Shown: positions 2,793 through 17,953 of the stretch, in pieces
Position numbering within the stretch: position 1 is the first letter of the stretch
Layout of the letters: the number at the start of each line of letters is the position of its first letter
Origin: Deltaproteobacteria bacterium
GTDB lineage: Bacteria; Desulfobacterota; DSM-4660; Desulfatiglandales; Desulfatiglandaceae
Reading direction: 5' to 3'
DNA length: 32,038 bases
Assembly: GCA_029933075.1 (NCBI GenBank)
Contig: JAOZOW010000012.1
Coordinates: 1 to 32,038 of the forward strand
Notes under the pieces: model-generated
The model's database searches: none
Told to the model about the DNA's origin: nothing
The model's input: only the letters and a program-made list of their open reading frames with translations
Made by a program: the position numbers and the translations under genes

Positions 2793-3452
2793 ATGATCAA
2801 AGAAAATGTGGAGAAGATTCTCAACGAGCTCCCGGATGGCGTCGGTCTTGTGGCAGCCGCCAAGACGAGGACACCGGAGGAGATCCTGGAGTGCGTGGAG
2901 GCCGGGGTCGGCATCATTGGAGAGAACTATGTCCAGGAGGCCGAGAGGGCTTACTCTGTAATAGGGGACAGGGCCCGGTGGCACATGATCGGGCATCTCC
3001 AGAGCAACAAGGCCAAGAAAGCGGTCAAGATCTTCGACATGATCGAGACGGTGGACTCTGTCAAACTTGCAAAGGCCATTGACAGGGCGTGCGAGAAGAT
3101 CGGGAGGACAATGCCGATCCTCATCGAGATAAACAGCGGCGAAGAACCTCAGAAGGCGGGTGTAATGCCAGAAGATGCCGTCGGGCTTGTCAAAGAAATC
3201 TCCGGCCTCAATAATATTGAAATCCTCGGGCTCATGACCATGGGCCCCTTTGCAGGGGATCCCGAGGAGGCGCGTCCCTATTTTCAGAAGACCAGAGCGC
3301 TCTTTGAAGAAATCAAGGGCCTGGAGCTTCCCCGTGTGGAGATGAAGTACCTATCCATGGGCATGTCCAATTCTTACAAAGTAGCCATAGAGGAGGGAGC
3401 GAATCTGGTCAGGATCGGCACGAAAATATTTGGTGAACGCCATTACGATTGA
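2793..3452 (+). CDS. yggS: YggS/PROSC family PLP homeostasis protein
   Basis: A 219-residue PLP-binding protein of the YggS/PLPBP family, which holds pyridoxal 5'-phosphate on a lysine and buffers the free cofactor; it has no known enzymatic reaction. The PLP lysine is in AAKTRTPEE near the N-terminus. Family motifs follow: GENYVQEA, WHMIGHLQSNKAKKAV, LIEINSGEEPQKAG, GLMTMGP, LSMGMSNSY and RIGTKIFGER. The reading frame opens further upstream, but the ATG at 2793 is preceded by GAGGAAAG (2781-2788) and gives the usual family length. The TtcA-family gene follows after 45 bases in the same direction, so they may be co-transcribed. Bases 2502-2792 upstream hold no gene I can support. Confidence 0.93.
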   Translation: MIKENVEKILNELPDGVGLVAAAKTRTPEEILECVEAGVGIIGENYVQEAERAYSVIGDRARWHMIGHLQSNKAKKAVKIFDMIETVDSVKLAKAIDRACEKIGRTMPILIEINSGEEPQKAGVMPEDAVGLVKEISGLNNIEILGLMTMGPFAGDPEEARPYFQKTRALFEEIKGLELPRVEMKYLSMGMSNSYKVAIEEGANLVRIGTKIFGERHYD

Positions 3453-15524: not shown

Positions 15525-16112
15525 ATGCCAGCTATTATGACATGGCAAGACCCCTGGAGATACGATTTTAAGGAGGATATGGACAGAAACGGGGGAAATA
15601 GCGGTATGCTCATAACGACCATTATCTTGGGCGTCGTAGCTGTTTTGCTGCTTGCAGCAGGCTACGCAAAGGGGCAGGGCCAGCATATTGCAGGCATGAG
15701 ATCGGCAGGGGTGATGCTGCTGGAAGTCATTCCATTGTTGATCTTCGCCTTTATTATTGCCGGGATGGTTCAGGTGCTTATCCCACATGAGGCTGTTGCC
15801 AAGTGGGTGGGGGTGGAATCCGGGTTTCGGGGCATTCTCATCGGTTCCGTGGCCGGGGGGTTGTGCCCGGGGGGACCTTTTGTCAGCATGCCGATCGCGG
15901 CAGGGCTGTTCCGCGCCGGGGCAGGCATAGGGACCATGGTCGCCTTTCTCACGGGGTGGTCGGTCTGGGCCGTGAGCCGGTTGCCCTTGGAAATAGGTTT
16001 CTTGGGGTGGAGGTTCACGCTTGTGCGGTTGGTGAGCAGCGCCCTGCTTCCCATACTGGCCGGACTTATCGCTCAGGTCCTTTTCGGCGGGTTCAAGGTA
16101 TCCCCTTCGTAA
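15525..16112 (+). CDS. DUF318/ArsP-like half-permease, second-half type
   Basis: A 195-residue membrane protein with a short hydrophilic N-terminus, a first helix (LITTIILGVVAVLLLAAGYA) and a bundle of further helices. The stretch FLTGWSVWAVSRLPLEIGFL then GWRFTLVRLVSSALLP parallels SWVSVGLIQLPAEAGALGRK in the NifX-permease fusion, so the two are homologous second-half modules. No first-half partner follows it, so it might pair with the protein at 10796-11338 or act as a homodimer. ATG 15525 has GGGAG (15513-15517) at a good distance; a second ATG at 15579 follows AAGGAGG too closely. It is probably the last gene of the wtp transcript. Confidence 0.85.
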   Translation: MPAIMTWQDPWRYDFKEDMDRNGGNSGMLITTIILGVVAVLLLAAGYAKGQGQHIAGMRSAGVMLLEVIPLLIFAFIIAGMVQVLIPHEAVAKWVGVESGFRGILIGSVAGGLCPGGPFVSMPIAAGLFRAGAGIGTMVAFLTGWSVWAVSRLPLEIGFLGWRFTLVRLVSSALLPILAGLIAQVLFGGFKVSPS

Positions 16113-16116
16113 AGGG

Positions 16117-16145
16117 TTGACAGAAAACATGTTTTTTGCGATCAT
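16117..16145 (+). promoter_or_regulatory. Probable sigma-70-type promoter of the leu leader/leuA
   Basis: A perfect TTGACA (16117-16122), a 17-base spacer and GATCAT (16140-16145, four of six consensus bases). Transcription would begin near 16152, just upstream of the leader peptide. It starts five bases after the stop of the preceding half-permease. Confidence 0.6.
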
Positions 16146-16188
16146 TTAATAAATTGAACTCATTTTGAATTCGGAAACGGCTAAGAAA

Positions 16189-16314
16189 GTGAACGCAGAT
16201 CTCTACAACGCAATTGCCATTATCAGGGAGACGGGGGAGACGGGCTTATTGCTGTCTCTGCTGTTAGGGCTCCTCCTGCTTAGGGGCCGACCGCCGGGCC
16301 TGATAATGGAATAG
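16189..16314 (+). CDS. leuL: leuA leader peptide (leucine attenuator)
   Basis: A 41-codon reading frame. Residues 20-31 contain ten leucines in twelve codons (16246-16281; TTA TTG CTG TCT CTG CTG TTA GGG CTC CTC CTG CTT), followed by RGRPPG. The enterobacterial LeuL leader likewise has a Leu run followed by RGR. The frame ends at TAG 16312-16314, just after an RNA segment that can pair either backward or forward. The start is uncertain: GTG 16189 has a weak ribosome site, TTG 16165 would add eight residues, and TTG 16249 behind GGGGGAG would give a 22-residue leader. In every case the Leu codons are read. The peptide itself is presumed to have no function beyond ribosome pausing. Confidence 0.8.
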   Translation: MNADLYNAIAIIRETGETGLLLSLLLGLLLLRGRPPGLIME

Positions 16315-16365
16315 CGCTGTAGAATAGTTCTTTGGAGTCCGTTATCAGGCAAGCCTGATAACGGA
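16217..16365 (+). promoter_or_regulatory. Leucine-responsive transcription attenuator, segments 1 to 4
   Basis: Segment 1 CCATTATCAGG (16217-16227) is exactly complementary to segment 2 CCTGATAATGG (16299-16309). Segment 2, as GCCTGATAATGGA (16298-16310), also pairs with segment 3 TCCGTTATCAGGC (16338-16350) with one G-U pair. Segment 3 pairs perfectly with segment 4 (16354-16365) to make the terminator. Segments 1 and 2 flank the Leu codons and segment 2 ends at the leader stop. A ribosome stalled on Leu codons frees segment 2 to sequester segment 3 (read-through). A ribosome reaching the stop covers segment 2, and with no translation 1:2 forms; both favour termination. Confidence 0.85.
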
Positions 16366-16373
16366 TTTTTTTT
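16338..16373 (+). terminator. Intrinsic terminator before leuA (attenuator stem 3:4)
   Basis: TCCGTTATCAGG (16338-16349), loop CAAG, CCTGATAACGGA (16354-16365) form a perfect 12-bp stem followed by eight Ts (16366-16373). It lies 38 bases before the leuA start codon and after the leader peptide. Confidence 0.95.
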
Positions 16374-16411: not shown

Positions 16412-17953
16412 ATGGAGCGAGTGATCGTCTTTGATACCACGTTGCGGGACGGGGAACAGTCTCCCGGCGCCAGCATGAACGTGGCGGAGAAACTGCGGCT
16501 TGCCACCCAGCTGGAAAAGCTCGGGGTGGACGCCATTGAGGCAGGTTTCCCCGCGGCTTCCCCCGGCGATTTCGAGGCGGTTCAGGCCATAGGCAAAAAG
16601 ATAGGCAACTCGGAGGTGACCGCCCTTGCCAGAACCTCAAAGGAGGACATAGACAGGGCGTGGGCCGCCGTTCGCGAGGCAGCAAGGCCGAGACTTCATA
16701 CCTTTATCGCCACCTCCGACATTCACCTGGAACACAAGCTGAGGATGAGCCGCGAGCAGGTCATTCAGTCCGCCGTGGAGGCCGTTAAACACGCAAGGCG
16801 CTTTACGGAGAATGTGGAATTCTCAGCCGAGGATGCGTCCCGGAGCGACAGGGACTTCCTCTGCCGCCTGTTTGAGGCAGTTATTGACGCAGGCGCTACC
16901 ACCGTGAATGTCCCTGATACGGTAGGTTACGCCATGCCGGATGAATTCGGTGAGCTGGTAAGATACATCCGCCAGCATACCCCGAATATCCACCGGGCCG
17001 TAATGAGCGTCCATTGTCATAACGATCTGGGTCTGGCAACGGCCAATACCTTAGCCGGGCTCAGGGCTGGAGCCCGGCAGGCAGAGGTTACCATCAATGG
17101 TATCGGGGAGAGGGCGGGGAATACGTCCCTGGAAGAGGTGGTGATGGGACTGCACACGCGCAGGGGGCTTTTGGATCTCTACACGGGCGTCAATACCAGG
17201 GAGATCCATCCCACGAGTCGCCTCGTCTCCATGATCACCGGTATTGTTGTCCAGCCCAACAAGGCGGTGGTCGGTGCCAACGCCTTTGCCCATGAGGCCG
17301 GGATTCATCAGGATGGGGTGCTCAAGAACAGGATGACCTATGAGATCATGGAGCCGGAAATTGTTGGTCTTTCGGCCAACCGGCTGGTCCTCGGGAAACA
17401 CTCTGGCCGACACGCCTTCAGGGAAAAGCTGGTGGATCTCGGATATGATCTTAGCGGTGAAGAGATCAATCGGCTCTTTGAAAAGTTCAAAGAACTGGCC
17501 GACAAGCGGAAAGAGATTGTGGATGAGGATATCGAGGCCCTTGTGGCGGAGGAGATCCTGCGGGTTCCCGATGTATACCAATTATTGTATTTAAACGTGG
17601 TAAGTGGAAATCTGGCTGTGCCTACGGCTACAGTGAAGCTGTTGGTAGAGGGAGAGGAGAGGCTGGGGGCCGGCTTCGGGGTAGGACCCATTGACGCCAC
17701 CTATAATACAATCGCCAAAGTCACGAGCACCCACTGCCGGCTGCTTCGTTTTTCCGTTAATTCCATCACTGGCGGGATGGATGCCCAGGGAGAGGTGACA
17801 GTCCGCCTCCAGGAAGACGACCTGGTGGCCCTCGGCAAGGGGGCTGATCCGGATATCATTACGGCCAGTGCCAAGGCATACATCAATGGCCTGAATCGGC
17901 TCGAATACCTGAGGAGGAACCCATCTTTGACCCCGGAGGAGAGGAGACTATAG
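16412..17953 (+). CDS. leuA: 2-isopropylmalate synthase
   Basis: A 513-residue enzyme condensing acetyl-CoA with 2-oxoisovalerate, the committed step of leucine synthesis. The N-terminal TIM barrel opens [18 protein letters not shown] and carries the [16 protein letters not shown] metal-binding region and [16 protein letters not shown]. About residues 365-500 form the LeuA dimerisation/regulatory domain that binds leucine in this family. Full-length for the long bacterial LeuA form. ATG 16412 has AAAAGGAGG (16394-16402) nine bases upstream. It is preceded by the attenuator described above, so leucine would control it both at transcription and by feedback. No other leu gene follows; its end overlaps the convergent lipB by six bases. 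Confidence 0.97.

Follow-up and report, generated by a model that had tools for sequence, protein, structure and literature searches.

A leucine-rich leader ahead of leuA in a deltaproteobacterial genome, a probable transcription attenuator of an uncatalogued RNA family

Ribosome-mediated attenuators are classical in enterobacteria, where a single leader senses isoleucine, valine and leucine in the case of ilvGMEDA and ilvB, and have further been described in alpha-proteobacteria, Actinobacteria and Firmicutes; the 2004 proteobacterial survey by Vitreschak and colleagues reportedly covered the alpha and gamma groups. Actinobacteria have ilvB leaders and a LEU element, which combines a Leu-rich leader before leuA with a conserved pseudoknot and is not a classical attenuator (PMC1262725); the ilv operon of Staphylococcus aureus carries a leucine-rich attenuator peptide (PMC5794164). 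In a literature search of incomplete coverage we found no attenuators described in Desulfobacterota or among cimA leaders, and no Rfam model for branched-chain attenuators of Desulfobacterota came to light. Here we report on a leader that precedes leuA in a stretch of 32,038 nt from a Deltaproteobacteria bacterium (Desulfobacterota; hereafter ‘the window’), and which, judging by its layout, its covariation, the conservation of its promoter and of where its stop lies, and its gene-tracking codons, is very probably a classical ribosome-mediated transcription attenuator controlling this gene. We consider the observation to be real and its interpretation to have good in silico support; the wider result is the RNA family (R1) to which the element is assigned.

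The closest described counterpart is the leu leader of E. coli (leuL, RF00512), with which the window element shares a Leu-codon peptide before leuA, a protector/antiterminator/terminator arrangement, a U-rich terminator, and a protector 5' arm situated at or before the Leu codons. The two differ in that leuL uses four identical CTA codons (five Leu codon types in the window), in that its Leu codons overlap the protector arm (they start 19 nt behind the arm in the window), and in the stop codon, which in the window lies at segment 2 (overlapping or directly behind it). The position of the Leu codons 3' of segment 1 was initially a candidate for a layout unlike that of E. coli leu, and was weakened by the folded leuL, in which part of the Leu codons likewise falls within the protector loop. 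Searches of the window with Rfam (gathering threshold and E<=10) gave no match to RF00512, a model that recovered E. coli leuL at 145.8 bits as a positive control, and extending them (gathering and permissive thresholds) to the window and 12 related loci gave no relevant match. Conversely, the covariance model R1, which we built from 25 sequences (the window's element among them), reached a non-significant 11.5 bits (E=0.14) on E. coli. As RF00512 misses the window and R1 misses E. coli, the element is leu-attenuator-like in its predicted action and does not belong to that RNA family. The Leu-rich leader before leuA is likewise shared with the actinobacterial LEU element, although the window needs no pseudoknot, and leader peptide attenuation of branched-chain synthesis is shared with the S. 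aureus ilv leader, which belongs to another phylum and was compared by description. The cimA-leuA leaders of the R1 family appear to sense Ile, Val and Leu, as those of ilvGMEDA and ilvB do; they differ from these by their genes (cimA, leuA, leuCD), by their RNA, and by the re-coding of one frame for single amino acids.

The regulated gene, encoding 2-isopropylmalate synthase (leuA, 16412-17953, + strand, as are all features of the element; TIGR00973 leuA_bact 732.9 bits, cutoff 598.7; Pfam HMGL-like and LeuA_dimer), forms a single-gene unit that stands alone on its strand, the next genes (lipB/lipA) being convergent on the other one. A sigma-70 type promoter (16117-16145), recognised by a consensus scan and by conservation of its TTGACA in the family, consists of a -35 box TTGACA (16117-16122), a 17 nt spacer and a -10 box GATCAT (16140-16145) with TG ahead of it; 84 of 90 family members have TTGACA without a mismatch, at a nearly constant distance. 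Just 5' of this promoter, an ORF (15525-16112) partially matches the ArsP_1 family of predicted permeases (residues 63-187 aligned with positions 11-135 of 294); by the standard of this family it looks short. The leader peptide frame (16189-16314), which has homologues of similar length in relatives, begins with a GTG at 16189 (preceded by a weak purine-rich stretch only), encodes 41 aa (VNADLYNAIAIIRETGETGLLLSLLLGLLLLRGRPPGLIME) and ends with a TAG at 16312-16314. Its control codons (LLLSLLLGLLLL, 16246-16281) contain 10 Leu in 12 codons (TTA TTG CTG tct CTG CTG TTA ggg CTC CTC CTG CTT), a density that occurs once in the six frames of the window and exceeds the maximum of 8 Leu per 12 codons found in 30 Markov-simulated windows. 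Codons of the pathway's amino acid, as expected of an attenuator, are thus present before leuA and conserved in the family. The leader additionally carries three Ile codons at segment 1, and since these are kept, Ile may also matter to this Leu-dominated leader. A 9-nt tandem duplication (16227-16245; GGGAGACGG twice, encoding ETGETG) extends the 1:2 loop to 69 nt, as compared to the usual 60, and leaves the loop hairpin intact.

Four pairing segments could be delineated by sequence and folding. Segment 1 (16217-16227), the protector 5' arm, encodes Ile-Ile-Arg and forms 11 exact pairs (duplex energy -18.3 kcal/mol) with segment 2 (16298-16310; boundaries 16298/9-16309/10), which encodes the leader's C-terminus GLIM-E and would be covered by a ribosome at the stop. 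Segment 2 may alternatively pair with segment 3 (16338-16350; core CCGTTATCAG) through 13 pairs that include one U.G (-22.7 kcal/mol), and segment 3 pairs perfectly (-26.1 kcal/mol) with segment 4 (16353/4-16365), behind which eight Ts follow directly (16366-16373), arm and tail (16353-16373) together constituting the 3' part of an intrinsic terminator. The loop between segments 1 and 2 holds a hairpin (P, 16230-16265; 16230-16243 with 16252-16265), found by folding and conserved with covariation in the family, which we regard as a candidate pause hairpin. The 224-nt leader folds at -92.9 kcal/mol (z-score -6.5), none of 200 shuffles being equally good, and sub-segment folding yields the terminator when segment 4 is included and the antiterminator when it is not. 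Together with the U8, the conservation and the covariation, these folds point to a mutually exclusive antiterminator and intrinsic terminator with a U run. The stem was found by folding and family alignment; that a consensus terminator scan of the window reported no site at the leuA leader is a limit of such a simple scan. The anatomy advanced in an earlier note on this DNA is borne out by these data, with small corrections and with the GTG start, hairpin P and the three Ile codons as additions to it: the TTGACA promoter and the ten Leu in twelve codons (interrupted by Ser, tct, and Gly, ggg) are in place, the leader stop at 16312 does lie directly behind segment 2 (which ends at 16309/10), and all four segments with their three pairings and eight Ts are present, with slightly adjusted boundaries. 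The six different Leu codon blocks that it described were reduced by our count to five Leu codon types, CTA being absent.

Under the attenuation model, 1:2 and 3:4 would pair in the absence of translation, and transcription would end at U8. With charged Leu-tRNA, the ribosome would reach the stop (16312-16314) and cover segment 2, leaving 3:4 to form and terminate transcription, while a scarcity of Leu-tRNA (or of Ile-tRNA, over segment 1) would cause an upstream stall by which 1:2 is held open and segment 2 stays free; 2:3 would then form first and RNA polymerase would read into leuA. Folding with a ribosome footprint masked switched between terminator and antiterminator as expected for ribosomes at the stop and at segment 1: 1:2 and 3:4 formed with no ribosome, 2:3 formed with a ribosome over segment 1, and with a ribosome at the last codons or stop (where, by computed geometry and masked folding, segment 2 would be covered) 3:4 remained. 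A ribosome on the Leu codons gave 2:3 only if pairing across the ribosome was barred; otherwise 1:2 re-formed. Because the Leu run begins 3' of segment 1, that segment is not directly masked by a ribosome on Leu codons and, in equilibrium folding, stays exposed just behind the footprint. Control by leucine would hence require that a ribosome within the loop of roughly 70 nt prevents 1:2 closure. We infer translation, stalling and antitermination, as well as this block of 1:2 closure by a ribosome in the Leu run.

The window element carries all features by which the R1 family is defined (R1 match, leader, helices 1:2, P and 3:4, TTGACA promoter), its match of 113.1 bits (E 9e-19 in the whole genome) being partly by construction, because it is one of the 25 model sequences. 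R1 matches were found in 70 of the 85 genomes of the window's class (26 of the 30 good-quality ones; many of the 15 genomes lacking a match are incomplete) and, with weaker scores, in 20 genomes of other families within a 395-genome sample of the phylum. All 14 inspected out-of-class matches lie ahead of ilvD (11) or cimA (3), with leaders rich in Ile/Val/Leu. The core CCGTTATCAG is near-invariant within the class and recognisable across the phylum. In regions 5' of leuA in relatives, the terminator (AATCCGTTATCAGG-loop-CCTGATAACGGATTTTT) is conserved in primary sequence, its exact pattern being present in 22 of 61 relatives (none in the reversed control) and twice in the window's genome. Few Leu-rich ORFs were found within 600 nt 5' of leuA in relatives, because cimA comes first in most of them, and the relatives' elements were traced via the terminator sequence instead of ORFs upstream of leuA. 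In most relatives the element precedes cimA-leuA-leuC-leuD (an example leader being NIIVIISATGVLLSLLLLLLVVRLKCPGLIMT), often followed by ilvD/leuB, ilvB, ilvN and ilvC. The second copy in the window's genome precedes the citramalate synthase gene cimA (TIGR00977, 755 bits) and leuC, and has an Ile-rich leader (MRKNIIIIISATGISISLLRSEPQGLIMMA). The genome holds a split pair, with an Ile leader before cimA-leuC and a Leu leader before leuA; what is a multi-gene operon in its relatives is here split, with two specialised leaders. A mobile-repeat origin of the conserved palindrome was rejected, as it has just two copies in this genome, both standing before leucine/isoleucine pathway genes. On comparative grounds, the window element is a member of an uncatalogued RNA family common to a whole group of sulfate-reducer relatives. 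The suggestion that such an attenuator may be undescribed in a deltaproteobacterium-like genome agrees with our having found no description, although what R1 recovers is a class-wide family and not a one-genome oddity.

The predicted structure is accompanied by covariation. In a MAFFT alignment of 25 leaders, made without reference to the fold, the terminated structure scored 0.163 (0.123 in shuffles, 0.04-0.08 when slid), and in a model-fitted alignment of 92 rows, which leans towards the structure and in which two rows are reverse-strand matches, it scored 0.212 vs 0.138. The latter (class) alignment showed both-side changes at 18 pairs (shuffles 11.7) and 127 both-side-change cells as compared to 35.9 expected, with none of 500 shuffles as high and slid controls far lower. 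Compensatory changes, whose absence the earlier note had named as refuting, were found in both alignments; they affect the 1:2, loop hairpin P and terminator helices. Pairing in the 2:3 helix stands at 92.7%, with variation confined to G-U wobble and one U.G present in 25 of 25; that wobble keeps this helix slightly weaker than a perfect one, and may reflect selection. The leader stop codon lies in segment 2 or within 6 nt of it in nearly all relatives, starting 9-15 nt after the start of CTGATAATG in 77 of 84 and 1 nt after it in 5. In seven loci (L123, L124, L145, L146, L129, L130 and L155) the leader frame is shifted and the stop is a TGA within segment 2 (TGATAA), the RNA core there supplying stops in one frame.

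The leader codons were tallied against the first gene for 90 class elements, by a frame-picking script that favours Leu, Ile and Val jointly and none singly. Elements with cimA-leuA first (n=45) average 8.8 Leu, 6.2 Ile and 3.2 Val codons; those with leuA first (n=10) 8.4, 4.6 and 3.3; those with cimA and no leuA (n=9) 5.7, 8.4 and 0.8; and those with ilvB first (n=6) 3.8, 5.7 and 6.2, respectively (the remainder being 7 with cimA at a contig end, 11 with other genes and 2 with no gene). The codons thus track the gene, cimA-leuA operons having mixed leaders (Ile/Val and Leu), lone leuA Leu-rich ones, cimA without leuA Ile-rich ones and ilvB Val-rich ones. By nominal p values that ignore shared descent, the Val fraction is higher (p=0.0004) and the Leu fraction lower (p=0.0007) before ilvB, and the Ile fraction is lower before leuA (p=0.003). 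Conservation of the leader frame for Leu codons, as envisaged earlier, holds in the sense that branched-chain amino acid codons are kept; the Leu share itself varies with the gene.

Such gene-dependent codon content bears on the rival explanations. That attenuation is real and responds mainly to Ile (through the segment 1 codons) or to a general failure of translation, not to Leu, is improbable, even if it is the best of the alternatives: almost every family member has Ile codons over segment 1 and, in unconstrained folding, only stalls at segment 1 open 2:3, and yet the Leu run is expanded here and in the other units that start with leuA, shrinks before those with cimA only, and gives way to Val before ilvB. 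This shift with the gene suggests that the loop codons are under selection. Slightly less credible still is a reading in which a repressor binds the palindrome (CCGTTATCAGG-N-CCTGATAACGG) as its DNA operator and the Leu richness of the frame is a coincidence, for which a perfect palindrome suited to a dimeric regulator and the unusual constancy of its primary sequence across the phylum could be invoked. Its arm spacing, however, varies from 4 to 8 nt, a T-rich tail follows every scored hairpin on the coding side, the codon content tracks the gene, and neither the alternative pairing of segment 2 nor the 1:2 covariation would be explained. Constancy over long distances has, moreover, already been noted for attenuator segments with multiple partners (PMC1262725): segments 2 and 3 each pair with two partners and segments 1 and 2 also code for the peptide, which may suffice to account for the frozen core.

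That a small-molecule riboswitch or a T-box works through this terminator, as a structured leader with alternative helices might also suggest, is very improbable, given that neither the window nor the 12 related loci match an Rfam riboswitch or T-box, that the conserved pairing lies in or adjoins the ORF and is accounted for by 1:2, P, 2:3 and 3:4, and that the codon runs differ by gene. Least plausible of all, with hardly any weight left to it, is a plain terminator of the upstream permease gene accompanied by a Leu-rich frame that arose by chance: a strong terminator hairpin does follow the gene, which ends at 16112, but a conserved promoter lies between them, the unit of leader and terminator is found again ahead of branched-chain amino acid genes across most of the class, and the Leu run is far beyond chance. 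We regard this reading as largely refuted by the comparative data.

The R1 family presents a natural series of codon runs and genes combined with a single RNA frame, through which the evolution of amino-acid specificity in attenuators becomes directly testable; for sulfate reducers and related bacteria it also provides a marker of branched-chain amino acid regulation, operons of uncertain role included. We put at about even odds a broader hypothesis, in which one old RNA frame of the phylum serves as an exchangeable sensor whose four segments are frozen by their multiple pairing and, in segments 1 and 2, by coding for peptide, and of which only the loop codon run (Leu, Ile, Val or mixtures) is rewritten as operons split and fuse. 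The frame also stands ahead of acyl-CoA dehydrogenase-Etf and 2-ketoacid:ferredoxin oxidoreductase operons, a hint that they may act in branched-chain amino acid synthesis.

Ile/Leu attenuators precede acyl-CoA dehydrogenase, etfB and etfA operons in several relatives (among them L208, L209, L210, L216, L234, L236 and L239; leaders at 151-324 or 3001-3173), the operon, annotated in L208 and L234, having AcrC/AcrB/AcrA-like models as its best NCBIfam matches, below cutoff. In L297 (8640-11861), genes resembling 2-hydroxyisocaproyl-CoA dehydratase and its activase lie just upstream of the attenuator-led operon, reminiscent of leucine-reducing fermenters, a context that makes the predicted regulatory logic (genes on when Leu/Ile are scarce) puzzling. 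Lastly, two tandem attenuator copies situated 770 bp apart (L246:3001-3944 and L301:5301-6071, both on the - strand), the upstream one of which has lost its Leu run, precede a 245-aa ORF and 2-ketoisovalerate:ferredoxin oxidoreductase genes (VorB subfamily model above cutoff), and may mean that branched-chain amino acids are synthesised reductively.
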